Source of the DNA: Streptomyces sp. NBC_00659
GTDB taxonomy: Bacteria; Actinomycetota; Actinomycetes; Streptomycetales; Streptomycetaceae
DNA: 64,000 nt
Assembly: GCF_036226925.1 (NCBI RefSeq)
Contig: NZ_CP109031.1
Coordinates: forward strand, 62,001 to 126,000
Direction of reading: 5' to 3'
Both the position numbers and the translations under genes were made by a program. This document shows, in pieces, positions 21,699-61,147 of this stretch. Below the pieces are notes generated by a model. The model ran no database searches, was not told the origin of the DNA, and saw only the letters and a list, made by a program, of their open reading frames with translations. Within the stretch, counting starts at the first letter, position 1; each line of letters begins with the position of its first letter.

Positions 21699-22907
<1,209 letters not shown>

Positions 22908-39116: not shown

Positions 39117-39181
39117 CCCCGCCGGCACCCGCAGCACCTGTACCGAAGAACACCCGGGAACACCGAGGAATGAGGTATGCC

Positions 39182-43469: not shown

Positions 43470-46298
43470 ATGGCAGTGACGACGGGCGTTCGGGCCGACG
43501 ACCTCACGCGGTGTGCGGTGCTCTTCGAGGCGGCCGACCCGCCCCGCTCCGGCACGGTGGTGTTCTGGGACCCGCCGGGCGGTCCGCCCGATCCGGTGGC
43601 CGGGGCGGGGGACGCCGTGGACGTGGTCACCGTCGAGGGCGGTGCCCCGGTCCTGCGCACCGTCGCGGCCGTGCGGCTGTCGGTCGGCGACGCGCTGCCG
43701 GTGCTGGCCCGCGCGGCCCGGCCGGGGGCGGGGGTCCATCGGGCCGCCGCGTTCTGGGCAGGCGCGGCCGCGATCGCCCTGCACCTGGCGGCCCGGGAGC
43801 GGCTGCTGCCGGGTGTCACGCCGGGCGGCTACGACGCCTGGCGGATCGGCCCACTGGACCTGGACGACGTGCAACGGGTGCGCGCGCTCGCCGCTGCCGC
43901 GCCGCCCGAGGCGTACGCCGGCGTCCTGCCGGGCACGGCTGACACGGCGGTGCGGATGGCCGAACCGGAGGGCCTGGTACGGGCGTTCCTGGACGCCGTC
44001 GCCGACACCCTGCCGCGCACCCCGGCGGCCCCGGCGGCCACCGGCCGGGCGGCGTTCGCGGCGGCGGAGCCCCAGCTCGTGCCCCAGCTGCGGGCCTGGG
44101 CCGAGGAGATCTCGGCGGGCCTGGACTCGGGAGTCCGCGTCAGCCTGCGGGTGGAGCTCACCGGCGGGAGCGAGGACGGCGGCATCGCCCCCTGCCTGCG
44201 CCTGGTCCCCCGCGCCCACAGCCTGGCCGACCCCACCCTCGCGCTCGACGCGGACGAGCTGTTCGCGAGCGCCGATCACGCGCTGGGTCCGCGGGCCCAG
44301 GCCGACACCGTGCTGGCCGTGCGCCGGGCCGCGGACGTGTGGAAGCCGCTTCAGCGGCTGTTGCCCGTGCCGCACGCCATGGAGTTGTCCGACCAGGACG
44401 TGACCGATCTGCTGGGCGGCGCGGCCGGCCGGCTGCGCGCTCACGGCATCGACGTGCTGTGGCCCGGGGACGCCGGCCGCTCGCTGACCGCCCGGGCCGT
44501 CGTCGGCGCCGGCCTCGCGCCGCCGGCCGACCTGCGTTCGTTCTTCGGCGGCGACGGCACCGTGGACCTGCGCTGGCAGCTCTGCCTGGACGGCGACCCG
44601 TTGACGGACCAGGAGAGGGCCGAGGCCGCCGCGGGCCGTCCCGCCGTACGGCTGCGGGGCGGCTGGATCCTGGCCGGTGCCGACCTGGCCCGCAAGGCCC
44701 GCGAGCCGGAGGTGGGCACGCTCACCGCGATCGAGGCGCTCGCCGTCGCCCTGACCGGATACGCGCGGGCCGGCAAGGAACAGGTGCCGGTGGAGCCCAC
44801 CCCCTGGCTGCTGGCGCTGCGTGCCCACCTCGCCGATCCGGACGGCGGCGCCGAACCCCTGCGCCGGCCCGCCGCGCTCGCCGCCACCCTGCGCGACTAC
44901 CAGCTGCGCGGCCTGCGCTGGCTGGACCGGATGACCTCGCTGGGGCTGGGCGGCTGCCTCGCCGACGACATGGGCCTGGGCAAGACCGTCCAGCTGATCG
45001 CGCTGCATCTGCTGCGCCAGGAACACGAGGACAGCAGCGGGCCGACCCTGGTCGTCTGCCCGGCCTCCCTGCTGGGCAACTGGCAGCGCGAGGTGGGCCG
45101 GTTCGCGCCCGGCACGGCCGTACGCCGCTACCACGGCACGGGCCGCACCCTGGACGGCGCCGGGGAGGGATTCGTCCTGACGACGTACGGCACGATGCGC
45201 CTCGACGCCGACCGGCTCGCCGGGCACCGCTGGGGCATGGTCGTCGCCGACGAGGCCCAGCACGTCAAGAACCCGCACTCCAGCACCGCCAGGGCGCTGC
45301 GGCTGATCCCCGCCGACGCGAAGATCGCGCTCACCGGCACGCCCGTCGAGAACAGCCTCTCCGAGCTGTGGGCGGTCCTGGACTGGACGACGCCCGGACT
45401 GCTCGGCGGATACGGCGAGTTCCGCCGGCGCTGGATGGCGCCGATCGAGGCGGAGCGCACCGAGGGCGCTGGGGAACGGCCCACGGCACAGCGCCTGGCC
45501 ACTCTCGTGCGCCCGTTCCTGCTGCGCCGCCGCAAGTCCGACCCGGGCATCGCGCCGGAACTGCCGCCCAAGACCGAGACGGACCGGCCGGTCGCGCTGA
45601 CCGCCGAGCAGTCGGCGCTGTACCACGGGCAGGTGCGGCAGGTGATGGCGCAGATCCGCGGCAGCGAGGGCATCGCCCGCAGCGGCCTGGTCCTGAAACT
45701 GCTCACCGGCCTGAAGCAGATCTGCAACCACCCCGCCCAGTTCCTCAAGGAGGAGGGCACGGTGCTCACGGGGCGCTCCGGGAAGCTGGAGCTGCTCGAC
45801 GAACTCCTCGGCACGATCATCGCCGAGGACGGCGCCGTGCTCGTGTTCACGCAGTACGTCGTCATGGCCCGGCTGCTGGAGCGGCACCTGCGCGAACGCG
45901 GGGTGCCCGCCCAGCTGCTGCACGGCGGCACGCCCGTGCCCAAGCGCGAGGAGCTCGTCCAGCGCTTCCAGGACGGGGAGGTGCCGGTCTTCCTGTTGTC
46001 GCTGAAGGCGGCCGGTACAGGCCTGAACCTGACCCGGGCCGAACACGTCGTGCACTACGACCGCTGGTGGAACCCGGCGGTGGAGGCGCAGGCCACGGAC
46101 CGCGCGTACCGGATCGGCCAGACCAGGCCCGTCCAGGTGCACCGGCTGATCGCCGAAGGCACCGTCGAGGACCGCATCGCCGCCCTGCTGGAGTCGAAGA
46201 AGGAGCTCGCGGACTCGGTGCTCGGGGCGGGCGAGCAGGCACTGACGGAACTGACCAACGACGAACTGGCCGGCCTGGTCGAGCTGAGGAGCGAGTGA
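43470..46298 (+). CDS. SNF2-family DEAD/DEAH-type helicase
   Basis: A 942-residue protein. The N-terminal 430 residues form an actinobacterial SNF2-associated region. The ATPase core follows with LADDMGLGKTVQLIALHLL (Walker A), VVADEAQHVKNPHSST (DEAQ box), LTGTPVENSLSELW and the helicase C-terminal lobe (VFTQYVVMARLLERHL, RAYRIGQTRPVQVH). SNF2 proteins act on DNA or nucleoprotein. The ATGA overlap with the SWIM-domain gene is the usual conserved pair. It has no evident biosynthetic role and interrupts the cluster. Confidence 0.92.
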   Translation: MAVTTGVRADDLTRCAVLFEAADPPRSGTVVFWDPPGGPPDPVAGAGDAVDVVTVEGGAPVLRTVAAVRLSVGDALPVLARAARPGAGVHRAAAFWAGAAAIALHLAARERLLPGVTPGGYDAWRIGPLDLDDVQRVRALAAAAPPEAYAGVLPGTADTAVRMAEPEGLVRAFLDAVADTLPRTPAAPAATGRAAFAAAEPQLVPQLRAWAEEISAGLDSGVRVSLRVELTGGSEDGGIAPCLRLVPRAHSLADPTLALDADELFASADHALGPRAQADTVLAVRRAADVWKPLQRLLPVPHAMELSDQDVTDLLGGAAGRLRAHGIDVLWPGDAGRSLTARAVVGAGLAPPADLRSFFGGDGTVDLRWQLCLDGDPLTDQERAEAAAGRPAVRLRGGWILAGADLARKAREPEVGTLTAIEALAVALTGYARAGKEQVPVEPTPWLLALRAHLADPDGGAEPLRRPAALAATLRDYQLRGLRWLDRMTSLGLGGCLADDMGLGKTVQLIALHLLRQEHEDSSGPTLVVCPASLLGNWQREVGRFAPGTAVRRYHGTGRTLDGAGEGFVLTTYGTMRLDADRLAGHRWGMVVADEAQHVKNPHSSTARALRLIPADAKIALTGTPVENSLSELWAVLDWTTPGLLGGYGEFRRRWMAPIEAERTEGAGERPTAQRLATLVRPFLLRRRKSDPGIAPELPPKTETDRPVALTAEQSALYHGQVRQVMAQIRGSEGIARSGLVLKLLTGLKQICNHPAQFLKEEGTVLTGRSGKLELLDELLGTIIAEDGAVLVFTQYVVMARLLERHLRERGVPAQLLHGGTPVPKREELVQRFQDGEVPVFLLSLKAAGTGLNLTRAEHVVHYDRWWNPAVEAQATDRAYRIGQTRPVQVHRLIAEGTVEDRIAALLESKKELADSVLGAGEQALTELTNDELAGLVELRSE

Positions 46299-47596
46299 TG
46301 GCCGCGAGCAAGGACAGCGGCGCCCGGGGCTTTCCCGCCTTCCCCGCCCGCAAGGGCGGCCGTGCCCGCGGCCAGTCGTTCTGGGCCGGATCCTTCACGC
46401 AGGCCGTCGAGGACACCTGGCCGGAGGAGGAGCCGCTGAAGCAGGGCCGGGCCTTCTCCCGCACCGGACGGATCGGGCCGATCGCGGTCGGCCCGGGACG
46501 GATCACGGCGCAGGTCTACGGCGGCGACGAGGCGTACACGACCGTGATCACCCTGCGGGAGCTGGACGACCAGGAGTGGGAACTGCTGTGGGACAAGACC
46601 GCGGACCGGCCCGCCGTGACGGAGTCGCTGCTGGCCGGTGAGCTGCCCGAGGACCTCCTGGAGGCGGTGGAGGACGCCCGGCTGCGGCTGCTGCCCGGGT
46701 ACGGGGACCTGGACGCCGACTGCGACTGCGACGCCCTGGACCATCCGTGCCCGCATGCCACGGCCCTGTGCTACCAGCTGTCGTGGCACCTGGACACGGA
46801 CCCGTGGCTGCTGCTGCTGGTGCGGGGCAGGGGCGCCGGAGAGGCCGTGGAGGAGCTGAAGTCGGAGCTGCTGCTGCGGGCCATGACGGGCGGGGACGAA
46901 GAGGACGAAGAGGATGGCGAGGACGGCGAGGACGCGGACGGGACGGACGCGGAAGTCACCCTGCAGAAGGGCCCGTTGCCCGGCGTGGACCCGCTGTCCG
47001 CCTGGTCGCGGGAGGCGTCGCCGCTGCCCGGACTGCCGTCGCTGCCTCCCGCCCCGGCCGGTGCCGGTGAGCCGGTCACCGGCATCGAGGCCGACCCGCT
47101 GGAGCAGCTGGTCGCCGACGCGGCCGTACGCGCCAGGTCGCTGCTCGCGTACGCCCGGGGCCTGACCGACGCGCCCGCGCCCGAGCTCGGCCTGTGGCAG
47201 GACACCGTACGCATCGCGGCCACCCATCCGGATCCAAGGGTTGCGGCGCGGCTGCGGCAGGCCTGCGGCAGACCGTCCGAGGAGCTGGACCGCGCGGCCG
47301 AGGCCTGGCGCACCGGCGGGGCGGCGGGGCTGGAGGTGCTGGAGCGCGCCTGGTCGCCGTCCGCCCAGGAGACCGCCCGGGCACGCGCGGCGCTCTCGGC
47401 GGGCTGGGAGGCGGACGAACTGCCGGAGCTTCAGGTCCAGGGCAACCACTGGACACCGGCCGGCCAGGACATCCAGCTGCGCCTGGGCCGCGACGGCCGC
47501 TGGTACCCCTATCGCCGCCGGGCGGACGCGTGGTGGCCGGCCGGAGCGCCGCACGGCGACCCCTCGGACGCCCTCGTGGACCTCACCGACGACTGA
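46298..47596 (+). CDS. SWIM zinc-finger protein, partner of the SNF2 helicase
   Basis: A 432-residue protein with a SWIM-type zinc-binding motif around residue 145-160 (DCDCDALDHPCPHATAL; CxC then CxH), an acidic low-complexity stretch of Glu/Asp near residue 200, and a C-terminal region ending in RRADAWWPAG. It starts in the stop codon of the SNF2 gene. In actinobacteria such genes are commonly adjacent; the exact function is unknown. It is the last gene before a strong terminator. Confidence 0.85.
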   Translation: MAASKDSGARGFPAFPARKGGRARGQSFWAGSFTQAVEDTWPEEEPLKQGRAFSRTGRIGPIAVGPGRITAQVYGGDEAYTTVITLRELDDQEWELLWDKTADRPAVTESLLAGELPEDLLEAVEDARLRLLPGYGDLDADCDCDALDHPCPHATALCYQLSWHLDTDPWLLLLVRGRGAGEAVEELKSELLLRAMTGGDEEDEEDGEDGEDADGTDAEVTLQKGPLPGVDPLSAWSREASPLPGLPSLPPAPAGAGEPVTGIEADPLEQLVADAAVRARSLLAYARGLTDAPAPELGLWQDTVRIAATHPDPRVAARLRQACGRPSEELDRAAEAWRTGGAAGLEVLERAWSPSAQETARARAALSAGWEADELPELQVQGNHWTPAGQDIQLRLGRDGRWYPYRRRADAWWPAGAPHGDPSDALVDLTDD

Positions 47597-47748: not shown

Positions 47749-49266
47749 TTGAACGGCAGCGCAGGCAGGACGCAGGTCGCGCCCGGACACGTCGCGGCAC
47801 ACCGTCGCACCCTCCTCGGCGGTGTCCTGGAACAGGCGCGGCGAACCCCGCACGCGACCGCACTGGTGTGGCGGGACGAGGAGATCGGCTACGGAGCGCT
47901 GCTGCGCAGCGCGGAGCACGAGCGGGCCCGCCTGGCGCACCTGCCGGGCGACGCACCCATCGCCGTGCCCGCCGTGAAGTCGCCCGCCACCATCGCCCTG
48001 GTCCTGGCCTGTCTGCTGGAGCGCCGGCCGGTGCTGCTGGCGGCCGCCACGCTCGGCCGGGACGCCGTCGGCCTGCTGCACGAGCAGGCCGGCGTACAAA
48101 AGGCGCTGCGGCCCGACGACGGTCCCCCTGCGCGCGGGGCGAGCACCCCGCGGCCTCCCGCGCCGCCCACCGGCCGGCCCGCCCTGCTGCTCACCACCTC
48201 CGGCTCCACCGGAACCCCGAAGATCGTCCCGCTGGACGTGGCGGCACTGGACGCCTTCACCGGCTGGGCCGCCGACGCCTTCGGCATCGGCCCGGGCACC
48301 ACGGTCCTCAACTACGCGCCGCTCAACTTCGACCTGTGTCTGCTCGACGTGTGGGCCACCCTCGCGCACGGCGGCCGGGCCGTCCTCGTCGAGGCCGACC
48401 ACGCCCTGGACGGTCCCCGCCTGCTGAATCTGCTGACCCGGCATCAGGTCCGGGTCGTCCAGGCCGTACCCATGTTCTTCCGGCTGCTCGCCGACGCAGC
48501 GGACACCGCCGGGGTGGTCCTGCCCGCCGTACGGCACGCCATGTTCACCGGTGACGCCATGCCCGGGCCGCTGCTCGCCCGGCTGCCGGGCCTGCTGCCC
48601 GGCGCCCGGCTGCACAGCATCTACGGGTGCACCGAGACCAATGACAGCTTCGTGTACGAGGTGAGCGCGAAAGACGCGGCGGGCGGCGGCCCGCTGCCGC
48701 TGGGCCGGCCGCTGCCCGGCGCCGGTGCGCTCGTCGTCACGGACGAGGGCACGGTACTGGCCGGGCCCGGCGCCGGCGAACTGCTCGTCTCCACCGCCTT
48801 CCAGACCCGCGGCTACCTGGGCCCGGCGGCCGCCGCGCAGGCGTTCGTACCGCATCCGGCACGCGACGACGGCCGGCGCTACTTCCGCAGCGGCGACCTG
48901 GTGCGCCGGCACACGGACGGCTCCCTCACCCTCGAGGGCCGCACCGACGCGCAGGTCAAGGTGCGCGGGGTGCGGGTCAACGCCCAGGAGGTGGAGCACG
49001 TCCTGCTCGGCCACCACGAGGTCACCGAGGCGGCCGTCCTGGCCCTGCCCGACCCGGTCGCCGGACGGCTGCTGCACGCGCTGGTACGGCGTGCACCGGG
49101 CTCCGGCCTCACCAGCCTGACGCTGCGCGGGCATCTGGCCCGCCGGCTCCCCCGGGCGGCGGTTCCGTCGGGCCTGCGGATCGTCGACGACCCGCTGCCC
49201 AGGACTTCCACCGGCAAGGTCGACCGCGACCTGGTCGCTTCGGCCCACTTCACCAAGGAGAACTGA
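47749..49266 (+). CDS. Discrete adenylation enzyme (NRPS-type A domain)
   Basis: A 505-residue freestanding A domain. A3 is TTSGSTGTPK (about 149-158), the binding-pocket region reads NFDLCLLDVW with Asp at 195 in the position that holds an amino group, A5 is YGCTETND, A7 is YFRSGDLVRR and A10 is PRTSTGKVDRD. It activates a carboxylic acid as the adenylate and loads it onto the carrier encoded 1 nt downstream. The TTG start has a strong GGAGGG site. Neighbours suggest nicotinate or a derived unit, as in kosinostatin; the retained Asp also fits an amino acid such as proline. Confidence 0.88.
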   Translation: MNGSAGRTQVAPGHVAAHRRTLLGGVLEQARRTPHATALVWRDEEIGYGALLRSAEHERARLAHLPGDAPIAVPAVKSPATIALVLACLLERRPVLLAAATLGRDAVGLLHEQAGVQKALRPDDGPPARGASTPRPPAPPTGRPALLLTTSGSTGTPKIVPLDVAALDAFTGWAADAFGIGPGTTVLNYAPLNFDLCLLDVWATLAHGGRAVLVEADHALDGPRLLNLLTRHQVRVVQAVPMFFRLLADAADTAGVVLPAVRHAMFTGDAMPGPLLARLPGLLPGARLHSIYGCTETNDSFVYEVSAKDAAGGGPLPLGRPLPGAGALVVTDEGTVLAGPGAGELLVSTAFQTRGYLGPAAAAQAFVPHPARDDGRRYFRSGDLVRRHTDGSLTLEGRTDAQVKVRGVRVNAQEVEHVLLGHHEVTEAAVLALPDPVAGRLLHALVRRAPGSGLTSLTLRGHLARRLPRAAVPSGLRIVDDPLPRTSTGKVDRDLVASAHFTKEN

Positions 49267-49267
49267 C

Positions 49268-49531
49268 ATGGACTACGCCCAGGCCGTCAAGGAGTTCGTC
49301 CTCAGGGAGTTCCTGCCGGACGTGCCCGCGGACGACCTCGCCGACGACCTCGACCTGATGGCGAACGGCGTCATCGACAGCCTCGGGCTGCTCAAGGTGA
49401 TCGCCTGGCTGGAGGACCGCTACGGCGTCGACACCGATGCCGTGGACCTCGACCCCGAGTCCTTCACCTCCGTCGCGGCGATCGCCGCGTTCCTCACCGA
49501 CGCGCCGCGCGAGCACGTGGGGGCCGAGTAG
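49268..49531 (+). CDS. Discrete peptidyl carrier protein
   Basis: An 87-residue carrier protein with the phosphopantetheine Ser at about 38 in NGVIDSLGLLKVIAWLE. It differs from the PKS ACP (YDSLAVLQ) and is of the stand-alone PltL/DltC-like type. It follows the adenylation gene after 1 nt and precedes the TrpD-like gene by 2 nt, so the substrate is probably processed while tethered to it. The local Sfp-type transferase could activate it. Confidence 0.9.
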   Translation: MDYAQAVKEFVLREFLPDVPADDLADDLDLMANGVIDSLGLLKVIAWLEDRYGVDTDAVDLDPESFTSVAAIAAFLTDAPREHVGAE

Positions 49532-49533
49532 TC

Positions 49534-50580
49534 ATGCACGAGGCCGTCGTCGCGCTCATCGGCCGGGACCGTCCCGTTCAGCTGCCGGTGTGGCGGTCGT
49601 TCTGGGACCAGCTGCACGCCGGTGACCTGCGCCGGGGTGAGGCCACGGCCCTGCTCGCCTCGCTGTCGACCCGGATGCCGGACCCGGTCACGCTGTGCGC
49701 GTTGCTGGACTCGCTGGCCGAGCGCAGGCCCCTGCGCCCGGCGGACGCGTTCGCGGATGCCGTGAACATCGTCGGCACCGGGGGCGGGCCGCGTACCTTC
49801 AACATCTCCACGGCGGCCGCCTTCGTGGCGGCGGCGATGGGCGTCCGGGTCGTCAAGACCGGCTCTCGCGCCTACACCGGCAGCTGCGGCTCCCTGGACC
49901 TGCTCGAGCGGCTCGGCATCGCGGCGACGACGTCGTACGAGCAGACCCAGGACACCCTGGAGCGCTGCGGCGTCGCCTTCGCCGGGTACTTCGTGTACCC
50001 CGCGGAGATCGCGTTGCTCGCCCGGGCCGTCGTGCCGCTGGACATGCGGCGGCTGGGGTCGATCGTCAACACGCTCGGCCCCCTGCTCGCCGACGTGGCG
50101 GTGCGCGCCCAGGTGAGCGGGGTGTCCCGCCCGGAGGCGCTCGAGGGGCTGCGGCAGGCGGCCGCGCACGTCTCGCGTGCCACGGGCCGGACGGTGTGGC
50201 TGGCCGACAACGACGCCGGCGCCGACGAGCTGCTGGCGTTCACCGCCAACCGGGTGCGGTGCTACGAGGACGGCGCCGAGGACGAGTTCACCCTGCGGCC
50301 CGCCGCGCTGGGCCTGGGGCCGGGCCGGCTGGCGGATCTGAGCCGTCCCGGGGGAGGCGGTGTGCAGGACGCCGTGGATCTCTTCCTGGAGGTCCTCGCC
50401 GGACGCGGCACCCCCGCCGCCACCGAAACCGTCTGCCTCAACGCGGCCGCCCTGGCGGTGGCGGGCCGGCTCACCGGCGACTGGCACGAGGCACTGCGCG
50501 CCGCCCGCTCCACGCTGCACGACGGCGCGGCGCTGTCGTTGGTCGACCGGCTGCGCACGCGGGAGGCGGCTCATGCCTGA
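49534..50580 (+). CDS. TrpD-like phosphoribosyltransferase with altered amine-binding site
   Basis: A 348-residue homologue of anthranilate phosphoribosyltransferase. The PRPP region FNIST (89-93) is intact, but GTGGD is GTGGG (81-85), and the anthranilate-binding motif KHGNR reads KTGSR (108-112), replacing both the His and the Asn that contact anthranilate; the following SS is TG. It should still attach phosphoribose to an amine nitrogen, but probably not to anthranilate. In the kosinostatin model an enzyme of this kind N-ribosylates a nicotinate-derived ring. Its stop overlaps the TrpA-like start by 8 bp. Confidence 0.85.
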   Translation: MHEAVVALIGRDRPVQLPVWRSFWDQLHAGDLRRGEATALLASLSTRMPDPVTLCALLDSLAERRPLRPADAFADAVNIVGTGGGPRTFNISTAAAFVAAAMGVRVVKTGSRAYTGSCGSLDLLERLGIAATTSYEQTQDTLERCGVAFAGYFVYPAEIALLARAVVPLDMRRLGSIVNTLGPLLADVAVRAQVSGVSRPEALEGLRQAAAHVSRATGRTVWLADNDAGADELLAFTANRVRCYEDGAEDEFTLRPAALGLGPGRLADLSRPGGGGVQDAVDLFLEVLAGRGTPAATETVCLNAAALAVAGRLTGDWHEALRAARSTLHDGAALSLVDRLRTREAAHA

Positions 50581-51658
50581 GCGACTCCTGCCCACGGTCC
50601 CGGTGTCGGGCCTGGCTCCGGACGCTGTGCCCGGAGTGGCGTCCTTGTCCCTGGCGTCCTGCCGGAGCGCCGGGTCCGCCGCGCCGGTGGGGCCTTCGCC
50701 CGAAAGGCCTGGGGAGCGTCGCCCGGCTTGCGGGCCGGACGGAGACGGCCGGCCGGCGGGTGAGGGCCGGGGAGCCCGGGGCAGAGTTCCCGGGGACGCA
50801 CACCCCCACGCACCGGCCGACACGGGCGAGTTCTTCGCGCGCCGCCGTCCGGGCCGCCCGGGACTCGCCGTGTTCGTCAACGCGGGCGACCCGCCGCTCG
50901 ACATCCTGGCGGACCTCGCCGCGATGCTCGACGACAGTGACGTCGACTGCCTCGAACTGGCCGTCCCCTTCCCCGGCTCCGTCACCGACGGCCCGGTCGT
51001 CCGCCGCAGCGCGGACCGCGCACTGGCGAGCGGTGTCACCCTCGACGCCGTGCTCGACGCGGTGACAGCCATACGTCCCACCCTGCGCCGTCTGCGCATC
51101 GCCCTGCTCGCCGACTGGAGTCACACCGTCAGGGGCCGCGACCCGGGCGGCTTCGCCCGCGCCCTGGCCGACGCGGGCTGCGACGGGCTGCTGCTGCACG
51201 GCCTGCCGCCCCGGCTGCGGGCCGCCCACTACGAGGCCGCACAGCTGGCCGGCCTGCCGCTGGTCACCACCTGTTACGCCGTCTCCGGCCGGGCAACGGT
51301 GGCCGAGGCCGCACAGCACGCCTCCGCCTACCTCTACCTGGTCGCCCACTACGGCCGCAGCGGCACCACCGCCGCCCCGGACCACGACCGGCTCGCCGCG
51401 GCACTCGCCGAGGTGCGCGCCGCCACCCGCGTGCCGGTCGCCGTCGGTTTCGGTGTCCGCACCCGGGCCGACATCGCCGCTCTGGAGAAGCTGGGCGCGG
51501 ACGCCGCCGTCGTGGGCAGCGCCGGTGTCGCCCGTATCGAACAGGCCCTGGCCGAACGGCGCGACCCCGTGCGGGAGTTCGCCTCCTTCGTGGCCGGGCT
51601 GCGCGGCCCGGCCGCCCACCACCGTCATCACCGTACGACTGGAGGAAGCCACACATGA
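50573..51658 (+). CDS. TrpA-like aldolase (tryptophan synthase alpha homologue) with N-terminal extension
   Basis: A 361-residue protein. The TIM barrel starts near residue 84 and keeps the catalytic Glu128 (CLELAVPF) and Asp139 (VTDGP). The usual PFSDP is PFPGS. The late motifs YLYLVAHYGRSG and VAVGFGVRTRAD are typical. TrpA performs a retro-aldol loss of glyceraldehyde 3-phosphate. No TrpB is present, so it acts alone, like the plant BX1-type enzymes. The first 83 residues are Pro/Gly/Arg-rich and have no counterpart in TrpA. Confidence 0.85.
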   Translation: MPERLLPTVPVSGLAPDAVPGVASLSLASCRSAGSAAPVGPSPERPGERRPACGPDGDGRPAGEGRGARGRVPGDAHPHAPADTGEFFARRRPGRPGLAVFVNAGDPPLDILADLAAMLDDSDVDCLELAVPFPGSVTDGPVVRRSADRALASGVTLDAVLDAVTAIRPTLRRLRIALLADWSHTVRGRDPGGFARALADAGCDGLLLHGLPPRLRAAHYEAAQLAGLPLVTTCYAVSGRATVAEAAQHASAYLYLVAHYGRSGTTAAPDHDRLAAALAEVRAATRVPVAVGFGVRTRADIAALEKLGADAAVVGSAGVARIEQALAERRDPVREFASFVAGLRGPAAHHRHHRTTGGSHT

Positions 51659-52029
51659 TCGTGCGAAACATCGACAGTGTCCGCTGCGTCGACTGGGGCA
51701 ACGGCCTCAGCCGCCGCTTCCTCACCGAGTCCGACGGCCTCGGCTACACCGTCACCGACACGATCGTACGGGCCGGGACCAAGTCACGGCTGGAGTACCG
51801 CCGTCACCTGGAGGCCTGCTACTGCATCGCGGGCAACGGCGAGATCATCGACATGAACGGCGACTCCCACCCCATCACGCCGGGCACCCTGTACGCCCTG
51901 GACCAGCACGACGCGCACTGGCTGATCGCCTCTCCGCAGGAGGACCTGCGCCTGGTGTGCATGTTCACCCCGGCGCTGCGCGGCGACGAGCGCCACGATC
52001 TCGACTCGTCCGGGTTCTCCCAGTACTGA
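51655..52029 (+). CDS. EctC-like cupin (ectoine synthase homologue) without ectABD
   Basis: A 124-residue cupin that matches ectoine synthase along its whole length. The metal ligands of EctC are conserved as Glu53, Tyr80 and His88 (HLEACYC, LYALDQHDAHW), and the substrate residues Cys, Phe, Glu and His appear in VCMFTPALRGDERHD. EctC closes N-acetyl-diaminobutyrate to a cyclic amidine with loss of water. No ectA, ectB or ectD gene is present. In this operon a dehydrating cyclisation that forms a bicyclic amidine is an attractive role. It is coupled to its neighbours by 4-bp and 1-bp overlaps. Confidence 0.88.
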   Translation: MIVRNIDSVRCVDWGNGLSRRFLTESDGLGYTVTDTIVRAGTKSRLEYRRHLEACYCIAGNGEIIDMNGDSHPITPGTLYALDQHDAHWLIASPQEDLRLVCMFTPALRGDERHDLDSSGFSQY

Positions 52030-53168
52030 TGATCACCTGGACCGAGGACCAGCAGCGGCTGCGCGAGGGGCTGGCGCCCCTGCTGGAGAAGCTCAGCTGC
52101 GGACATCTCGAGCGTGACGCCCAGGCCGCCTTCCCCCGCGCGCAGTGGGACCTGCTGCGCGCGACGGGGATCCTGGGCCTGCCCTTCGACGAGCGGTGGG
52201 GCGGGCTCGGCCAGGACCTGCTGACCACGATGTACGTCCTGGAGGGGCTGGGCCTGGGCTGCCGCGACGCGGGGCTGAACTTCTCCGTGTGCAGCCATCT
52301 GGTCAGCACCGGCGTCCCCCTGCACCGGTTCGGCTCACAGCTGCTCAAGGACCGTTATCTGCCCGGGCTGTGCTCCGGCGACCTGATCGGCGCCCATGCG
52401 ATCAGCGAGCCCGACAGCGGTTCGGACGCGCTGGCGATGCGCACCCGGGCCCAGCGGGACGGCGACGGCTTCGTCCTGACCGGCAGCAAGGCGTTCGTCA
52501 GCAACGGCCCGGTCGCCGATGTCATCACCGTGTACGCCCGCACCAGCGACCGCCCCGGCCCGCTGAGCGTGACCGCGTTCCTCGTCGACCGTGACACGCC
52601 CGGCCTGAGCGTCGGGCCGCCGGTGGCGAAGATGGGCCTGCGCACCTCCCCGCTGTGCGAGCTGTTCTTCGACGGGTGCCGCATCCCGGCCACGCAGGTC
52701 GTGGGCCGCACCGGCGGCGGCTTCCTCGTCCTGGACCACGTGATGCGCTGGGAGATCCTGTGCTCCTTCGTCGTCAACGCCGGGGAGATGCGCGACCGGG
52801 TCGAGCGCTGCGCGCAATACGCCCGCACCCGTACCCAGTTCGGGCAGCCGATCGGCTCCTACCAGGCCGTCTCCCACCGGATCGTGGACATGGAGATCGG
52901 GGTGGAGACAGCCCGGCACTGGCTGTACTCGGCCGCCCGCAAGCTGGCCGCGGGCGAGAACGTCACCCGTGACATCGCGATCGCCAAACTCCTCACCAGC
53001 GAGGCCAACGTGGCCTCGGCGCTCGCCGCCGTGCAGATCTTCGGAGGCAACGGCTACATGGCCGAGTACGGCATCGAGAAGGAGCTGCGCAACTCGGTCG
53101 CCGGGACCATCTACTCCGGTACGTCCGAGATCCAGCGCAACCGCATCGCCTCGATGCTCGGCCTGTGA
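52029..53168 (+). CDS. Acyl-CoA dehydrogenase-like enzyme acting on the carrier-bound unit
   Basis: A 379-residue flavoprotein of the normal family length, similar to PltE/RedW-type enzymes that act on carrier-bound substrates. The FAD region includes AHAISEPDSGSDA and the C-terminal QIFGGNGYMAEYGIEKELRN. The catalytic Glu of the common YEGTSxIQ motif is Ser (IYSGTSEIQ). It may therefore work as a reductase, for example on a nicotinoyl thioester, or use a base elsewhere. It starts in the stop codon of the EctC-like gene. Confidence 0.85.
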   Translation: MITWTEDQQRLREGLAPLLEKLSCGHLERDAQAAFPRAQWDLLRATGILGLPFDERWGGLGQDLLTTMYVLEGLGLGCRDAGLNFSVCSHLVSTGVPLHRFGSQLLKDRYLPGLCSGDLIGAHAISEPDSGSDALAMRTRAQRDGDGFVLTGSKAFVSNGPVADVITVYARTSDRPGPLSVTAFLVDRDTPGLSVGPPVAKMGLRTSPLCELFFDGCRIPATQVVGRTGGGFLVLDHVMRWEILCSFVVNAGEMRDRVERCAQYARTRTQFGQPIGSYQAVSHRIVDMEIGVETARHWLYSAARKLAAGENVTRDIAIAKLLTSEANVASALAAVQIFGGNGYMAEYGIEKELRNSVAGTIYSGTSEIQRNRIASMLGL

Positions 53169-53206
53169 GACACCCTCGACACCCGACGGAAGCGGAACCC
53201 GCCATC

Positions 53207-53902
53207 ATGACGCCCCTGCAGCCCAGCCCCGGATCCGGTGCCCGAGCCGCCCTGGCGGCAACCGAGTTCATCGACCACGACAGCCCCGAGGTGCACGCGT
53301 TCGTCCGCCAGGCGCTGCCGGCGGGCGCCCGCACGCCCACCGAGCGGGCGGTGGCCCTGTACTACGCCGTGCGGGACGGCATCCGCTACGAGGTGTACGG
53401 CGCGGATCTCTCCCGTGCGGGGCTGCGCGCGAGCCGGGTCGTGCGCACCGGCTCGGGCATGTGCCTGCACAAGTCGGTGCTCTACGCGGCCGCTCTGCGC
53501 TCGCTCGGCATCCCGGCCCGCCTGGTCCTGACCGACGTCCGCAATCATCTGGCGTCCGAGCGGCTCAAGCAGCTGCTGGGCGGGGACGTGTTCCACCACC
53601 ACGGGCTGACCGCGCTGCGTCTGAACGGACGCTGGACGAAGGCGACCCCGGTGTTCAATAAAACCCTGTGCCGCCTGTACCGGATGGCACCGCTGGACTT
53701 CGACGGCATGGCCGACAGCCTCCATCACCCCTTCGACCTGCAGGGCCGGCGTCAGATGGAGTTCCTGCGCGAGCACGGCGAGTTCGACGACCTTCCCTAC
53801 GAGCGGGTGATCGGCGAGCTGCGGGCCGCCCACCCGCGGCTGTTCGACGCCGGCGGGGAGCGGTTGGCGAAAGGGTCTTTGGTACGGGAGGCGGCCGCAT
53901 AG
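53207..53902 (+). CDS. Transglutaminase-like protein
   Basis: A 231-residue protein with a transglutaminase/protease core: Cys in GSGMCLHKSVLYAAALRSLGIPARLV, His in FHHHGLTALRLNGRW and, where Asp is expected, KATPVFN, so the third triad residue is not obvious. A relative, AdmF of andrimid, makes an amide bond between carrier-bound acyl groups, so a role in joining or releasing the tethered unit is possible. ATG 53207 is preferred (GGAAGCGGAA upstream); GTG 53165 overlapping the previous stop is an alternative. It ends in the TrpF-like start. Confidence 0.75.
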   Translation: MTPLQPSPGSGARAALAATEFIDHDSPEVHAFVRQALPAGARTPTERAVALYYAVRDGIRYEVYGADLSRAGLRASRVVRTGSGMCLHKSVLYAAALRSLGIPARLVLTDVRNHLASERLKQLLGGDVFHHHGLTALRLNGRWTKATPVFNKTLCRLYRMAPLDFDGMADSLHHPFDLQGRRQMEFLREHGEFDDLPYERVIGELRAAHPRLFDAGGERLAKGSLVREAAA

Positions 53903-54570
53903 TGCTGGTCAAGTTCTGCGGTGCCACGACCGCCGCCGAGGTGCGGGGTGTCGCCGACGCGGGGGCGGATCTGGTCGGGCTGTGGCACGGCGTTGCGGGA
54001 GGGGCCGCCGACCTGTCCGTGCCCCGGCTGGCCGAGCTGGCGGCCCAGGCACGGGCGACGGGCCGGCTGGAGGCGGTGCTGGTCACCTTCGGCTCCGACG
54101 CCAAGGCGCTGGCCCGGCTGACCGCCGACGGCGGACCGTCGTGGGTGCAGCTGCACGGCTACCAGCCGCCCGCGACGGTGCGCGCCCTGCGCGCACTGGT
54201 CCCCGAGGGGGTACGCATCGTCAAGGTCCTGCACGTGCGGGGCGAGTCCTGTGTGGAGGCGACGCTGATCGGCGCGTACGAACGCGCCGGCACGGACTGC
54301 TTCCTGCTGGACGCGGTCACCGCGGACGGGCGGACCGGCAGTACGGCGGTGAGTCTGGACGACGCCGCGGTGACGCGCCTGGCCGGCCGGATGACACGCC
54401 CTTTCCTGCTGGCGGGCGGGCTGCGGGCGGACAACCGCGACCGGTTCGCCGGCTCCGTCGCCCACCCCCGGTTCCTGGGCATCGACGTGGACTCCGCCGC
54501 GCGCGGCCCCGACGGGCTGCTGTCGGCGGGCAACGCGGCGGCGGTGGCCGAGGGCTGGAGGACGCCGTGA
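53902..54570 (+). CDS. TrpF-like phosphoribosyl isomerase
   Basis: A 222-residue homologue of phosphoribosylanthranilate isomerase. The general base Cys6 (KFCGATT) and the general acid Asp137 (FLLDAVTADGRTGS) are conserved, as is VQLHG (82-86). It should open an N-linked phosphoribose by the Amadori rearrangement to the 1-deoxyribulose form. It follows the transglutaminase-like gene without a gap and overlaps the TrpC-like gene by 4 bp. The substrate is inferred to be the product of the TrpD-like enzyme. Confidence 0.88.
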   Translation: MLVKFCGATTAAEVRGVADAGADLVGLWHGVAGGAADLSVPRLAELAAQARATGRLEAVLVTFGSDAKALARLTADGGPSWVQLHGYQPPATVRALRALVPEGVRIVKVLHVRGESCVEATLIGAYERAGTDCFLLDAVTADGRTGSTAVSLDDAAVTRLAGRMTRPFLLAGGLRADNRDRFAGSVAHPRFLGIDVDSAARGPDGLLSAGNAAAVAEGWRTP

Positions 54571-55274
54571 CGTTCACCCGGGCGCTGACGGCGGCCGCCC
54601 GCCCCGTGATCATGGAGGTCAAGCGGCGGGACGCGAGCGGCACCGACCTCATGGGGGCGCGAACGGTCGCCGAGGTCGTCGCCGCGTACGAGGAGGCCGG
54701 GGCGCCGTGCATCTCGGTGGTCACCGGCCGCTGGTTCGGCGGCAGCGAGGATCTGCTGCGCCAGGTCGCCGCGCGCACCGGCCTGCCGCTGCTGCGCAAG
54801 GACTTCGTCACCTCGCGGCGCCAGCTGGCGCGCACCCGCGAACTCGGCGCCTCGGCGGTGCTGTTGACGGTCAAGGTGCTGCCCGCCGACGTCCTGGCGA
54901 GGCTGGTGGACCATGCGCTCGAGCTGGGGCTGACCCCGTTCGTGGAGGTCGCCGACGCGGCCGAGGCGGCTGCGGTGCCCCGGGCGGACGCGTGCGTGGT
55001 CGCCGTCAACAACAAGGACATCGCCACCCGTGAGCGGCTGCCCGGCGACCTCGAGCGCAGCGCCGCCCTGCTGCCCGTCGTACGGGGCACCGGCGCCCGC
55101 TGCGCGGTCAGCGCGAGCGGCATCACCGACCCCCTCGACGCGGCACGCCTGCTCGACACGGGCTTCGAGGGCCTGCTCGTCGGTACGGGGCTGCTGCGCG
55201 TGTCGCACCCGAAGCGGTGGTGCGCGGCCGTGGACAGGGCACGGGCCGGCCGGCGACAGGCCGGACGGCCCTGA
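54567..55274 (+). CDS. TrpC-like indole-glycerol-phosphate synthase homologue with changed active site
   Basis: A 235-residue TIM barrel. Glu17 and Lys19 (MEVKR), Lys78 (LLRKDF), Glu127 (PFVEVAD) and Asn148 (VNNKD) match the catalytic set of TrpC with the right spacing. Two sites differ: the SPSKG loop is DASGTD (22-27), and the ESG motif is ASG (183-185), losing a conserved Glu. The enzyme should decarboxylate and close a five-membered ring on an Amadori product, here probably a pyrrole ring on a non-anthranilate amine. It is the last gene of the operon. Confidence 0.87.
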   Translation: MTFTRALTAAARPVIMEVKRRDASGTDLMGARTVAEVVAAYEEAGAPCISVVTGRWFGGSEDLLRQVAARTGLPLLRKDFVTSRRQLARTRELGASAVLLTVKVLPADVLARLVDHALELGLTPFVEVADAAEAAAVPRADACVVAVNNKDIATRERLPGDLERSAALLPVVRGTGARCAVSASGITDPLDAARLLDTGFEGLLVGTGLLRVSHPKRWCAAVDRARAGRRQAGRP

Positions 55275-56039: not shown

Positions 56040-56900
56040 GTGACAGTTCTGGTGACAGGTGCAACAGGATCGGTCGGCCGTCATGTGGTCGAGCGGCTCG
56101 TGGCCGCGGGCGTCCCGGTGCGAGCGCTGACGAGGAACCCGGCCACCGCGGGCCTGCCGGCGGGAGTCGACGTCTTCGAGGGCGACCTCACCCGTCCCGA
56201 CACGGTGCGCGCGGCCCTGCGCGGGGTGGAGCGCCTCTATCTCTTCCCGGTCCCCGAGACGGCCCGCGAGGTCGTCGCCGCCGCCAAGGACGCCGGGGTG
56301 GGCCGGATCGTCGTGCTGTCGTCCTCCTCCGTCCTGGACGAGTCGGGCGACAACCACAGCGGTGAGTACCACCGTGTCGTGGAGCGTGCGGTCGAGGAGT
56401 CCGGCATCGACTGGACCTTCGTACGCCCCGACGAGTTCGCCGCCAACGTCCTGTGGAAGTGGGGTCCTTCGATCCGCGCCGAGGGCGTGGTGCGCGCCCC
56501 GTACGGCGATGCCCCGCGCGTCCTGGTCCACGAGGCGGACGTCGCCGCCGTCGCGGTGACCGCGCTCCTTCAGGACGGGCACACGGGCCGGGCGTATGTG
56601 CTCACGGGGCCCGAGGCGATCACCCAGGCCGACCAGGTGCGGGCGATCGCCGGGGCGCTGAGGCGGGAGATCCGCTTCGTGGAGATCACGCCCGACCAGG
56701 CACGCGAGCTGATGGGACAGGCCATGCCCGCGCCGGTGGTGGAGATGGTCCTCGGTTATCTGGCCGACGCCGCGGTCAACCCGCCCGTGGCCGTGGACAC
56801 CGTCGAGCGTGTCACCGGTGTGCCCGCCCGGACCTTCGCCCGGTGGGCGGCCGACCACGCCGGCGATTTCGCCCCCGTGTCCGAGGAAGTGGCCGCGTGA
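56040..56900 (+). CDS. NmrA-type NAD(P)-binding oxidoreductase 1
   Basis: A 286-residue atypical short-chain dehydrogenase. The dinucleotide motif is VTGATGSVGRHVVERL, and the sequence contains IVVLSSSSVLDESGDNHSGEYHRVVERAVEESGIDWTFVRP, typical of NmrA/HSCARG relatives that lack a clear Tyr-x-x-x-Lys. Such proteins act as reductases in aromatic polyketide tailoring. GTG start with GGAG. It overlaps the downstream MDR gene by 4 bp. Two paralogues lie at 59414 and 60306. Confidence 0.8.
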   Translation: MTVLVTGATGSVGRHVVERLVAAGVPVRALTRNPATAGLPAGVDVFEGDLTRPDTVRAALRGVERLYLFPVPETAREVVAAAKDAGVGRIVVLSSSSVLDESGDNHSGEYHRVVERAVEESGIDWTFVRPDEFAANVLWKWGPSIRAEGVVRAPYGDAPRVLVHEADVAAVAVTALLQDGHTGRAYVLTGPEAITQADQVRAIAGALRREIRFVEITPDQARELMGQAMPAPVVEMVLGYLADAAVNPPVAVDTVERVTGVPARTFARWAADHAGDFAPVSEEVAA

Positions 56901-57934
56901 GCATCGACGCCACGACCGCGCTCAGGGGCGCGAGGGTGACCATGACGGGCAGCGGCGAGCCCGAGAAGCAGCTCGTCACCGGGCACGAGCCGGTTCCCGC
57001 CGCGGGGCGCGGCAAGGTCGTGGTCCGTGTCGAGGCGGCGGGCGTGTCGTTCGCCGAGGTGCAGATGCTCCGGCACCTGCACCCCTTCCCGCCGCGCTTT
57101 CCCTTCGTTCCCGGCTACGACCTGGTCGGGCGGATCACCCAGGTCGGCGAGGACGTCACCGGGTGGCGGGTGGGCGACCGCGTCGCCGCCATGCCCCGGT
57201 ACGGCGCCTGGCAGGAGTACGTGGAGACGCCCGCCAAGCACCTCGCCCCGGTGCCCGGGGGCCTGGACGCCGCCGAGGCCGTCGCGCTGGTCACCAACGG
57301 CGTGACCGCCTACCAGATGCTGGACCGGCTGGCCGCACTGGCTCCCGGCGACACCGTCCTGGTGCACGGAGCCAGTGGCGGGGTGGGCACGGTGCTCGCC
57401 CGGCTCGCCGTCCACCGCGGACTGCGCGTCATCGGCACCGCGTCCCCGGCCAAGCACGAGGCCGTACGGGCGCTGGGCGCCGAGCCCCTCGACTACCGCA
57501 CCCCCGACCTGGCGTCGGCGGTGCGCGACCTGGCGCCCGGGGGCGTCGAGGCGGTCTTCGACCACATCGGCGGCCGGGGACTGGACGACAGCTGGGCGAT
57601 GCTCGCCAAGGGCGGCACGCTGGTGTCCTTCGACTCCTCCGTCGCCGGGTACCGGCCGGGGCAGTGGTTCCGCCCGCACGTCCCGGCACTGCTGCGCACC
57701 GGCCGGCGCTTTTTCGCCCGGCTGCTGGGGCTGACCGGCGGCCGCCGGATGACGATGTACTACGTCAAGCCGGGCGCCGACTTCAACGCCGCCCTGCAGG
57801 CTCTGTACGAGCTGCTCGCCGAGGGCGTGCTGAAGCCCCCGATCGCGGGCCGCCACCCGCTGGACGGGGCGGGCGGCGCACTGCGGCAGCTGCTGGAGGG
57901 GCGCTCCGTCGGCAAGCACGTCCTGACCCCCTGA
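56897..57934 (+). CDS. MDR-family quinone oxidoreductase-like protein
   Basis: A 345-residue zinc-free medium-chain reductase. The N-terminal catalytic domain contains GVSFAEVQMLRHLHP and VPGYDLVGRITQVGEDVTGWRVGDRV. The NADPH domain contains VLVHGASGGVGTVLARLAVHRGLRVIGT. It should reduce quinones or enones with NADPH. Translationally coupled to the NmrA gene, it probably takes part in reductive tailoring of the polyketide. Confidence 0.85.
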   Translation: MSIDATTALRGARVTMTGSGEPEKQLVTGHEPVPAAGRGKVVVRVEAAGVSFAEVQMLRHLHPFPPRFPFVPGYDLVGRITQVGEDVTGWRVGDRVAAMPRYGAWQEYVETPAKHLAPVPGGLDAAEAVALVTNGVTAYQMLDRLAALAPGDTVLVHGASGGVGTVLARLAVHRGLRVIGTASPAKHEAVRALGAEPLDYRTPDLASAVRDLAPGGVEAVFDHIGGRGLDDSWAMLAKGGTLVSFDSSVAGYRPGQWFRPHVPALLRTGRRFFARLLGLTGGRRMTMYYVKPGADFNAALQALYELLAEGVLKPPIAGRHPLDGAGGALRQLLEGRSVGKHVLTP

Positions 57935-57995
57935 CCACCCTCAGCCTCCGCCTCAGCCTCAGCCTCAGTTTCCTTACCATGCAAAGGAATTCAGC

Positions 57996-58439
57996 ATGTC
58001 CACGACGCTGACCGAGAAGTCCGTCCAGCAGCGCAACAAGCAGATCGCGCTGGACTGTGCCGCCGCCTGGAACCGCTGGGAGCTGGACGGCATCATCAAG
58101 CACTGGTCCCCCGACATCCGGCACTTCTCCGAGGACCGCCTCGTCGACACCCGGCAGATGACCGGTGCGATGCAGGGCGGCCTCGCCGCCTTCCCCGACC
58201 TCCACCTGGACGTCAAGAGCGCCGTCGCCGAGGGCGACCGGGTCATCCTGCGGATCACCGTGACGGCAACCCACCTGGGCGAGTTCATGGGCAGGGCCGC
58301 GACCGGCAGGAAGGTCACCTGGTTCATGCTCGAGGAGCTGCGCTTCGACGACGAGGGCCTGATCATCGAGCACTACGACGTCTTCAACTACCTGCCGATG
58401 CTCAAGGAACTGGGCTTGGTCCCCGCGGACATGATGTGA
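57996..58439 (+). CDS. SnoaL-like polyketide cyclase family protein 1
   Basis: A 147-residue NTF2-fold protein. It has the SnoaL pattern CAAAWNRWELDGIIKHWSPDIRHFSED, a FPDLHLDVKSAVAEGDRVILRITVTATHLGEFMG strand set and a C-terminal DEGLIIEHYDVFNYLPMLKELG. Members close the last ring of anthracyclines by aldol chemistry or hydroxylate rings. AAAGGA precedes the ATG. A CCTCAG hexamer repeat lies just upstream (about 57940-57970). It overlaps the MBL gene by 4 bp. Confidence 0.85.
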   Translation: MSTTLTEKSVQQRNKQIALDCAAAWNRWELDGIIKHWSPDIRHFSEDRLVDTRQMTGAMQGGLAAFPDLHLDVKSAVAEGDRVILRITVTATHLGEFMGRAATGRKVTWFMLEELRFDDEGLIIEHYDVFNYLPMLKELGLVPADMM

Positions 58440-59353
58440 GCGCCGGCGTTCTCCAGGCCGCGCTGAGCGAGGTCGCCGACGGTGTGTACGCCTTCGTGCA
58501 GCCCGACGGCGGCTGGTGCCTGAACAACGCGGGCCTCGTCGTCGGCGACGGGGGCAGGCATGTGCTCGTCGACACCGCGGCGACCGAGGCCCGGGCGCGG
58601 CGGCTGCGCGAGCAGGTGCTGCACCGTACGGGCACACCGCCGCGCACCCTGGTCAACACGCACTTCCACGGCGACCACACCTTCGGCAACCATCTGTTCC
58701 CGGAGGCCGTGGTCGTCGCGCACGAGCAGACGCGCTGCGACATGGCTGCCGCGGGAGTGCATCTGACGTCCCTGTGGCCGGACGTGTGCTGGGGCGACAT
58801 CGACATCGCGCTGCCCGAGATCACCTACCGCGACGCGCTCACCGTGCACGCCGGCGGGGTGCGGGTGGAGCTGCTGCATCTGGGCCCGGCCGCGCACACC
58901 ACCAACGACACCGCGGTGTGGCTGCCCGAGCAGCGTGTGCTGTTCGCCGGTGACCTGGTGATGTCCGGCGTCACGCCGTTTTGCGTGATGGGATCGGTCA
59001 GCGGTTCCCTGGCCGCCCTGGACCGTCTGCGCCGCCTGGACCCGCTGGTGGTGGTGCCCGGCCACGGGCCGGTCGGCGGCGCGGAGGTGTTCGACGCCGA
59101 CGAGGCGTACTTGCGATGGCTGCGGGACCTCGCGCGCAGGGGCGTCGCGGACGGATCGAGCCCGCTGGAGCTGGCCCGTGCCACCGGCCCCGGCCCCTTC
59201 GCCGGGCTGTTGGACGCGGAACGGCTGGTGCCGAACCTGCACCGGGCCTACGCGGAGGAACGCGGGGCGGCTCCCGGGGAGCGGCTGGACATCCCGGCCC
59301 TGTTCGCGGAGATGGCGCAGTATCACGGCAGGCTGCCGACCTGCCGGGCATGA
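58436..59353 (+). CDS. Metallo-beta-lactamase-fold hydrolase
   Basis: A 305-residue protein with all MBL metal motifs: THFHGDHTFGN (HxHxDH), GPAAHTTNDTAV (His), LFAGDLVMSG (Asp) and VVPGHGPVGG (His). MBL proteins in aromatic polyketide clusters act as cyclases, thioesterases or lactonases. GTG start coupled to the SnoaL gene. It ends 1 nt before a 26-bp hairpin. The reaction is not predictable from sequence. Confidence 0.85.
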   Translation: MSAGVLQAALSEVADGVYAFVQPDGGWCLNNAGLVVGDGGRHVLVDTAATEARARRLREQVLHRTGTPPRTLVNTHFHGDHTFGNHLFPEAVVVAHEQTRCDMAAAGVHLTSLWPDVCWGDIDIALPEITYRDALTVHAGGVRVELLHLGPAAHTTNDTAVWLPEQRVLFAGDLVMSGVTPFCVMGSVSGSLAALDRLRRLDPLVVVPGHGPVGGAEVFDADEAYLRWLRDLARRGVADGSSPLELARATGPGPFAGLLDAERLVPNLHRAYAEERGAAPGERLDIPALFAEMAQYHGRLPTCRA

Positions 59354-59354
59354 C

Positions 59355-59413
59355 CCGCGCAGGGGTGAGGGGCGCAACCGCCGGGTGCGGTTGCGCCCCT
59401 CACCCCTGCGCGG
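59355..59413. terminator. Bidirectional terminator with a 26-bp perfect stem
   Basis: CCGCGCAGGGGTGAGGGGCG and the next six bases pair perfectly with the downstream copy, with a 7-nt loop, and fill the whole gap between the convergent MBL and NmrA 2 genes. Confidence 0.85.
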
Positions 59414-60292: not shown

Positions 60293-60305
60293 GTCGCAGC
60301 CTCTC

Positions 60306-61145: not shown

Positions 61146-61147
61146 GG

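Follow-up and report, generated by a model that had tools for sequence, protein, structure and literature searches.

Which building block is made, and from which precursor, by an operon that sets copies of four tryptophan-biosynthesis enzymes beside a discrete adenylation (A) enzyme, a peptidyl carrier protein (PCP), an ectoine synthase-like cupin (EctC), an acyl-CoA dehydrogenase-like enzyme (ACAD) and a transglutaminase-like enzyme (TG)? The operon lies in a 64,000-nucleotide stretch of Streptomyces sp. NBC_00659 (hereafter the window), which comprises bases 62001-126000 of a 9.66 Mb single-contig chromosome (NZ_CP109031.1). An earlier note on this DNA had proposed that the nine genes load nicotinate on the carrier and convert it into the pyrrolopyrrole of kosinostatin or a relative. 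Our analysis indicates that the operon quite probably makes a bicyclic amidine, a pyrrolo[2,3-b]pyrrole acyl group bound to a carrier protein of its own, as judged from gene content and conservation, with glutamine as the starting material. A Pfam scan of 50 of the 56 called window genes recovered all nine families that the note had listed, in one tight run and at the strand and coordinates it had given (Table 1). In operon order, neighbouring genes are spaced by +1, +2, -8, -4, -1, -4, -1 and -4 bases when TrpA is read from the ATG at 50573, and such spacing, from -8 to +2 bases, fits a single transcript.

To examine the distribution of the operon, 39 of 120 listed EctC-like proteins were aligned, and the alignment was used to scan a collection of species genomes. 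Of the 422 relatives confirmed in this way the best 80 were retained, and the class frequencies given here are valid for these close relatives of the window EctC; in 17 of the 80 loci, EctC lies less than 6.5 kb from a locus end. Family alignments were built from called genes at no less than 38% identity and 75% coverage with the window included (e.g. 69 A enzymes, 80 EctC and 65 TrpC sequences). The full set of A, PCP, TrpD, TrpA, EctC, ACAD, TrpF and TrpC occurs in 60 of the 80 loci, and in 51 of the 63 with EctC at least 6.5 kb from both ends; 58 loci show exactly the gene order of the window, 45 without TG and 13 with it. The kosinostatin kinship suggested earlier is borne out by M. okii TP-A0468 (L066), the kosinostatin producer, where eight of the nine genes follow the same order at 50-76% identity, and by S. 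spiroverticillatus (L014), with all nine in the same order (cassette identity 69-83%) together with a ketosynthase, a chain-length factor and an acyl carrier protein. PMC13099267 names the latter species as having a kosinostatin cluster, and our set also includes two species named in PMC7918784, N. alkaliphila (L028) and A. bangkokensis (L048). In S. albogriseolus (L143, L144, L015), the genes occur as PCP-TrpD-EctC, A-TrpA-ACAD-TG-TrpF and TrpC on three separate contigs; that all nine are kept though scattered suggests a joint function. Judging from this conservation, the operon is a conserved, much-travelled cassette of the kosinostatin type. Gene loss was considered for L015, where just PCP-TrpD-EctC lie nearby, and was rejected on finding the other six genes on two further contigs. 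L013 likewise has just PCP-TrpD-EctC nearby, with TrpC- and TrpA-like genes far off on the same contig.

Phylogenetic trees place three of the tryptophan-like enzymes apart from primary metabolism. The cassette copies of TrpC, TrpD and TrpA fall into a single clade per enzyme (support 0.84, 0.94 and 1.0) in trees that used 6, 4 and 6 housekeeping copies and were rooted on the housekeeping group, which hence forms no clade; a further S. albogriseolus TrpA-like protein, whose score of 72 bits is lower than those of the housekeeping proteins, was assigned to the cassette group. All three group with the copies of the kosinostatin producer and not with housekeeping ones, in keeping with the carrier-bound, tryptophan-like building block of the earlier note, which had held that a grouping with housekeeping enzymes would tell against it. 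It could be asked whether these genes are extra copies boosting ordinary tryptophan supply, as their families (TrpD, TrpA, TrpF and TrpC) would allow and as the PF00697 (TrpF) search, in which the two copies of the cassette gene are the only matches in the genome, might suggest. Streptomyces normally use PriA in place of TrpF. This explanation is very improbable given the separate clades, the changed motifs described below, the presence of A, PCP, EctC and ACAD alongside in 60 of 80 loci and the absence of any TrpB match by Pfam in the operon, and we rejected it on the trees and on the ordinary trpC, trpD and trpA genes found elsewhere in the genome, which have far better family scores than the cassette copies (266 vs 142, 268 vs 159 and 254 vs 147 bits).

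The cassette shares with the primary pathway (TrpDFCA) its families, most catalytic residues and its logic, and differs in a substrate that would be carrier-bound, in altered motifs and in having no TrpB. The glycines of the phosphoribosyl pyrophosphate motif of TrpD are kept in 69/69 sequences, Glu29 and Asp40 of TrpA (numbered from 50870) in 67/67, Asp137 of TrpF in 67/67 and its Cys6 in 66/67 (one gap), and E17, K19, K78 and E127 of TrpC in 65/65. On the other hand, the KHGNR motif that all four housekeeping TrpD sequences contain is replaced by K[T/S]G[S/A]R in 69/69 cassette copies, the TrpC motif SPS of all six housekeeping copies is lost, and the Glu of AESG (5/6 housekeeping copies) is Ala in 65/65. 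Several of these changed residues presumably line the anthranilate end of the active sites, which makes a substrate without the ortho carboxylate plausible.

The loaded unit is best approached through the A enzyme, whose code positions read DLLAMTIDSK in the window. Asp195, which from its position and an alignment with LgrA we take to be the residue holding the amino group of amino acids, occurs in 69/69 A enzymes (the window and 68 loci). A enzymes that activate aryl acids typically lack this aspartate. Its universal presence therefore argues against a plain pyridine carboxylate as substrate, and no A enzyme of the nicotinate type, lacking the aspartate, was found among the 69. In the nicotinate route, A would load nicotinate, and the carrier-bound pyridine would be reduced, contracted to a pyrrole, ribosylated and closed by the tryptophan-like enzymes, with EctC forming the amidine last. 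It agrees with the published claim for kosinostatin, whose producer M. okii TP-A0468 has the same cassette, and with the lower kosinostatin yield of a mutant in kstB7, a proposed deformylase gene (PMC7918784). However, besides the aspartate, the code is nearly common to loci that have no tryptophan-like genes, no ring-contracting enzyme was recognised among the nine families, the ACAD is of the prolyl-dehydrogenase kind, and the M. robiginosa cluster lacks KstB7, the homologue being encoded nearly 1 Mb from it (PMC7918784). As an account of this operon we consider the nicotinate route unlikely, and it is probably wrong. An A enzyme that would activate 2-amino-1-pyrroline-5-carboxylate (cyclised glutamine), or glutamine itself, accords better with the code.

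The two enzymes next considered point in the same direction. Among solved structures, the ACAD is closest to the prolyl-ACP dehydrogenase 4irn (E 4.7e-86), followed by 6cxt (labelled butyryl-CoA dehydrogenase) and then a prolyl-PCP dehydrogenase; its best NCBIfam models are RedW and PigA, both below cut-off, and Glu242 is conserved in 78/78. Thus a role for it as a nicotinoyl reductase is not supported. The operon resembles the prolyl-to-pyrrolyl carrier pathways (prolyl-carrier ligases; RedW, PigA, 4irn) in its discrete A enzyme, PCP and dehydrogenase of the same kind, and differs from them in having EctC and an A code ending in Asp-Ser-Lys (69/69). In EctC, the metal ligands E53, Y80 and H88 are present in 80/80 sequences, and a pocket-side residue of the first cupin motif, printed as Trp in PMC6344544, is Glu in 71, Gln in 8 and Arg in 1 of the 80. 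A known ectoine synthase converts glutamine into the same cyclic amidine as a low-efficiency side reaction (PMC6344544, PMC5924519). The normal substrate is N-acetylated diaminobutyrate (PMC6344544), and this, with the altered pocket residue, would suit a pathway in which the substrate of A and EctC is some other amino acid (a diaminobutyrate or ornithine derivative, for example) and the product a different cyclic amidine or heterocycle for tryptophan-like elaboration. We regard that alternative as slightly less likely still than nicotinate: no EctA- or EctB-type family, as ectoine synthesis would have, was found among the 50 window proteins scanned, and on chemical reasoning a five-carbon amide acid leads straight to the C6N2 bicycle when three of the ribose carbons are removed.

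Further support for glutamine comes from loci that naturally hold only part of the cassette. In seven of the 80 (L031, L071, L074, L082, L086, L087 and L090), A-PCP-EctC-ACAD-TG occurs with no tryptophan-like gene nearby, and D195, Q238, D299, S300 and K490 are common to the A enzymes of both kinds of locus (69/69). Since these trp-less loci keep A, PCP, EctC, ACAD, TG and nearly the same code, EctC and ACAD can be read as working without the tryptophan-like enzymes and most likely act before them, and amidine formation by EctC as the last step, as first suggested, loses its support. L071, L082 and L086 continue with PsuG/IndA-like, HAD and MFS genes (Pfam on L071, BLAST for the other two), a layout that looks like the showdomycin arrangement. 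According to PMC8724604, the proposed showdomycin route runs from L-glutamine to 2-amino-1-pyrroline-5-carboxylate by the cyclase SdmE; this product is activated by SdmC, loaded on SdmD, oxidised and hydrolysed, and C-ribosylation by SdmA/SdmB follows. PMC9120177 lists showdomycin with the label ectoine. By that proposal the sdm cluster of S. showdoensis and our operon are alike in a cyclase, a discrete A enzyme, a discrete PCP and a carrier-bound ring oxidation starting from glutamine. In contrast, the window would route phosphoribose through TrpD, TrpF, TrpC and TrpA rather than through C-ribosylation of the SdmA/SdmB type, and the corresponding PsuG/IndA-like C-glycosynthase and HAD phosphatase families were not found among the 50 of 56 window genes scanned. 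A separate clade for the trp-less loci was looked for in a tree of A, EctC and ACAD (68 sequences) and was not found. The trp-less L031, L074 and L087 still carry a relative of a TrpB2-like enzyme.

We propose the following pathway. The EctC-like cupin would close the side-chain amide of glutamine on its α-amine to give 2-amino-1-pyrroline-5-carboxylate, before loading, as proposed for showdomycin, or possibly on the carrier. The A enzyme would then load the cyclic amidine on the PCP, whose attachment Ser38 is conserved in 74/74, and the prolyl-dehydrogenase-type ACAD would oxidise pyrrolinyl-S-PCP to 5-aminopyrrole-2-carbonyl-S-PCP. With the aminopyrrole in the role of anthranilate, TrpD would place phosphoribose on the exocyclic amine, TrpF would carry out the Amadori step, TrpC would close a second pyrrole ring on the neighbouring carbon, with no carboxylate to lose, and TrpA would remove glyceraldehyde 3-phosphate to leave pyrrolo[2,3-b]pyrrole-carbonyl-S-PCP. 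Glutamine would supply four of the ring carbons of the C6N2 bicycle and ribose the other two, and the carbonyl would remain attached to the carrier. Finally, the TG-like enzyme would pass the acyl group to a kosinostatin-type anthracyclinone from the adjacent type II polyketide synthase (PKS). TG Cys100 and His146 are present in 24/24, and the gene occurs in all seven trp-less loci and in none of 31 loci with a separate ketosynthase of the L016 kind; on this distribution we tentatively take TG for a release or transfer enzyme of the carrier-bound acyl group. UbiD genes are found in 10 of the 80 loci, and a PF02441 flavoprotein lies beside the cassette in L024, L060 and L080. UbiD acts on pyrrole carboxylates, and by this chemistry both kinds of gene fit a pyrrole carboxylate. 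The gene sets and conserved residues above are observations, and the reactions and the product are what we infer from them.

Several points weigh against this pathway. Ma et al. reportedly traced the kosinostatin pyrrolopyrrole in 2013 to nicotinic acid and ribose, in experiments that included feeding. The nicotinate origin is restated in PMC7918784, PMC5321127 and PMC8400222. The showdomycin pathway itself is described as incompletely understood in PMC8724604. That SdmE is EctC-like is our own inference, and the showdomycin-type core (EctC-like protein, A, PCP and carrier-ring dehydrogenase) was matched in the window against the showdomycin-like loci, sdm being likened by description only. 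Likeness of the PCP is just 40-50% in trp-less loci, and the fourth code position, with code positions presumed from GrsA numbering, is Ser in 5 of 7 trp-less A enzymes versus 1 of the 62 others, which have mostly Ala, so that the substrates of the two classes may differ. In TrpC, N148 is kept in 62/65 (Thr in M. okii) and S184 in 59/65 (Gly in six loci including S. spiroverticillatus); these two residues and the lost AESG Glu are, as we take it, active-site residues of indole-3-glycerol phosphate synthase (IGPS). As for TG, the usual third residue was not found (Thr occupies its place), no sequence in the Protein Data Bank matched it at E 0.1, and the gene was not found in 20 kb of the M. okii locus.

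If the pathway is confirmed, it corrects a likely wrong precursor, gives a role to carrier-bound copies of tryptophan enzymes and offers one testable chemical logic for two antibiotic pathways, showdomycin and kosinostatin. With less assurance than for the operon itself, we favour the broader reading that the nicotinate origin of kosinostatin is wrong, that glutamine and phosphoribose supply its pyrrolopyrrole, and that the cassette is a portable 'aza-indole' generator used in many actinobacterial clusters, with aromatic PKSs, with a separate class that has a ketosynthase and MaoC, and with UbiD, TrpB2-like and nonribosomal peptide synthetase (NRPS) genes that would make a tryptophan isostere to be built into peptides. 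Many clusters (422 EctC relatives confirmed, the best 80 examined) thereby become candidate sources of pyrrolopyrroles or aminopyrroles. PMC13099267 already mentions dozens of kosinostatin clusters that are partial, having two of the three modules, so the gene content as such is not new; what is new here is the precursor and the pathway logic. In the literature searched, mostly non-subscription papers, we found no statement of a glutamine origin or a showdomycin link for the kosinostatin-type cassette, and the two antibiotics appeared together, in the open literature searched, only in one genome survey, as separate predictions.

Table 1. Features of the window, with positions counted from its first base.
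Feature	Position	Strand	Family or match
Operon of nine genes	47749-55274	+	Pfam family found for every gene
Discrete adenylation enzyme (A)	47749-49266	+	PF00501/PF13193 (AMP-binding)
Discrete peptidyl carrier protein (PCP)	49268-49531	+	PF00550 (PP-binding)
TrpD-like phosphoribosyltransferase	49534-50580	+	PF00591 (Glycos_transf_3)
TrpA-like retro-aldol enzyme	50573-51658	+	PF00290 (Trp_syntA); TIGR00262 above cut-off
EctC-like cupin	51655-52029	+	PF06339 (Ectoine_synth); NF009806 above cut-off
Acyl-CoA dehydrogenase-like enzyme (ACAD)	52029-53168	+	Pfam
Transglutaminase-like enzyme (TG)	53165-53902	+	PF01841 (Transglut_core)
TrpF-like Amadori isomerase	53902-54570	+	PF00697 (PRAI)
TrpC-like ring-closing enzyme	54567-55274	+	PF00218 (IGPS)
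Type II PKS ketosynthase (KS-alpha)	36631-37848	+	87% identical to L014
Type II PKS chain-length factor (CLF)	37848-39116	+	81% identical to L014
Type II PKS acyl carrier protein (ACP)	39170-39445	+	68% identical to L014
NmrA-like (3), zinc dehydrogenase, SnoaL-like (2) and metallo-beta-lactamase-fold genes	56085-61552		Family matches; downstream of operon
SNF2 helicase and second gene	43470-47596		Second gene without Pfam match; directly upstream of operon
S-adenosylmethionine recycling set	14958-22907	-	S-adenosylhomocysteine hydrolase, methylenetetrahydrofolate reductase, B12-dependent methionine synthase, PfkB-type kinase, S-adenosylmethionine synthetase

The TrpA-like gene most likely starts at the ATG listed, 8 bases inside TrpD, since gene calling gave an 8-base overlap in 47 of the 65 loci with calls for both genes; the protein would then have 361 aa. 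Its N-terminus (50573-50869) is long and of low complexity, and called lengths in 65 relatives range from 240 to 323; the close relative L012 has a similar N-terminus, with 402 aa from the same kind of ATG.

The polyketide genes are consistent with a kosinostatin-like partner. The type II PKS that the earlier note had seen in the cluster was confirmed upstream of the operon as KS-alpha, CLF and ACP, with cyclase and oxygenase genes also upstream, and is of the kst kind (KS 73% and CLF 63% identical to L070, M. arborensis). Cyclase-like and NmrA/short-chain dehydrogenase families serve in kosinostatin tailoring (PMC11101304, PMC12281474), and for tailoring of the KstA10/A11/A15/A16 type the window has the NmrA and SnoaL families, a correspondence at family level only. 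The kosinostatin and quinocycline clusters (kst of M. okii TP-A0468; ksn of S. spiroverticillatus and S. albidoflavus) are thus like the window in cassette order and in SnoaL/NmrA tailoring families. They differ in the precursor, read here as glutamine and not nicotinate, and in the deoxysugar (branched octose) genes: PF03559 (NDP-hexose 2,3-dehydratase) was not found in the whole window genome and was found in four of the six genomes searched, namely M. okii, S. spiroverticillatus and N. alkaliphila, all of kosinostatin type, and S. albogriseolus. The S. albogriseolus cluster has flanks that resemble those of the window, yet its genome has PF03559. No NDP-sugar enzyme or sugar-attaching glycosyltransferase was the best match of any of the 50 (of 56) window proteins or the 10 downstream proteins scanned, in a search that did not go through the octose genes one by one; Glycos_transf_3, the family of TrpD, is a glycosyltransferase by name only and was not counted. 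Without PF03559 the product is probably free of octose; the pathway to this sugar appears to be missing, and the product should be a quinocycline-like aglycone, as far as family matches can tell. A cluster on a linear plasmid of S. xanthii (NZ_CP061282, L091) is laid out in the same way, with the complete cassette and the PKS, helicase and SWIM genes, and no sugar gene is annotated in the 41 kb seen of this incompletely annotated plasmid; it differs in being plasmid-borne and in sequence (A and TrpD 65% and TrpF 59% identical to those of the window).

The operon is present twice in the genome. A second TrpF copy was found by the PF00697 search at the mirror position on the right chromosome arm, and BLAST showed left-arm bases 106,322-146,320, which contain the operon, to be 99.99-100% identical to their right-arm mirrors, and the outermost 20 kb of the two chromosome ends match each other equally well. 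The operon thus lies in a terminal inverted repeat, in which the whole cluster is probably duplicated as well, the comparison having covered bases 1-20000 and 106322-146320. The SNF2 helicase and second gene directly upstream have relatives in L011, L012, L015, L027 and L091, where the counterpart of the second gene is annotated as a SWIM zinc finger; the pair possibly serves in self-protection against a DNA-binding product. A set of S-adenosylmethionine recycling genes lies farther upstream (Table 1).

The cassette also occurs in other settings. In 31 of the 80 loci it lacks TG and is accompanied by a separate ketosynthase, which shares 63-92% identity with the L016 enzyme, and by a MaoC-like dehydratase (L016, L022, L023, L026, L029, L030, L032-L035, L037, L038, L041, L044, L047, L049-L053, L057, L058, L061, L065, L067-L069, L073, L078, L079 and L081); no named product for this class was found in the literature examined. 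In addition, a TrpB2-like enzyme (NF009057 on L024) and UbiD accompany the trp-bearing cassettes of L024, L036, L039, L042, L045 and L088, and in L036 and L042 the cassette is followed by an NRPS with A, PCP and condensation (C) domains, which suggests a tryptophan isostere as a peptide building block. Moreover, the cassette is found outside Actinomycetota, to judge by record titles, with a rearranged gene order, in L088 (Roseomonas) and L075 (a metagenome-assembled genome labelled Acetobacteraceae).

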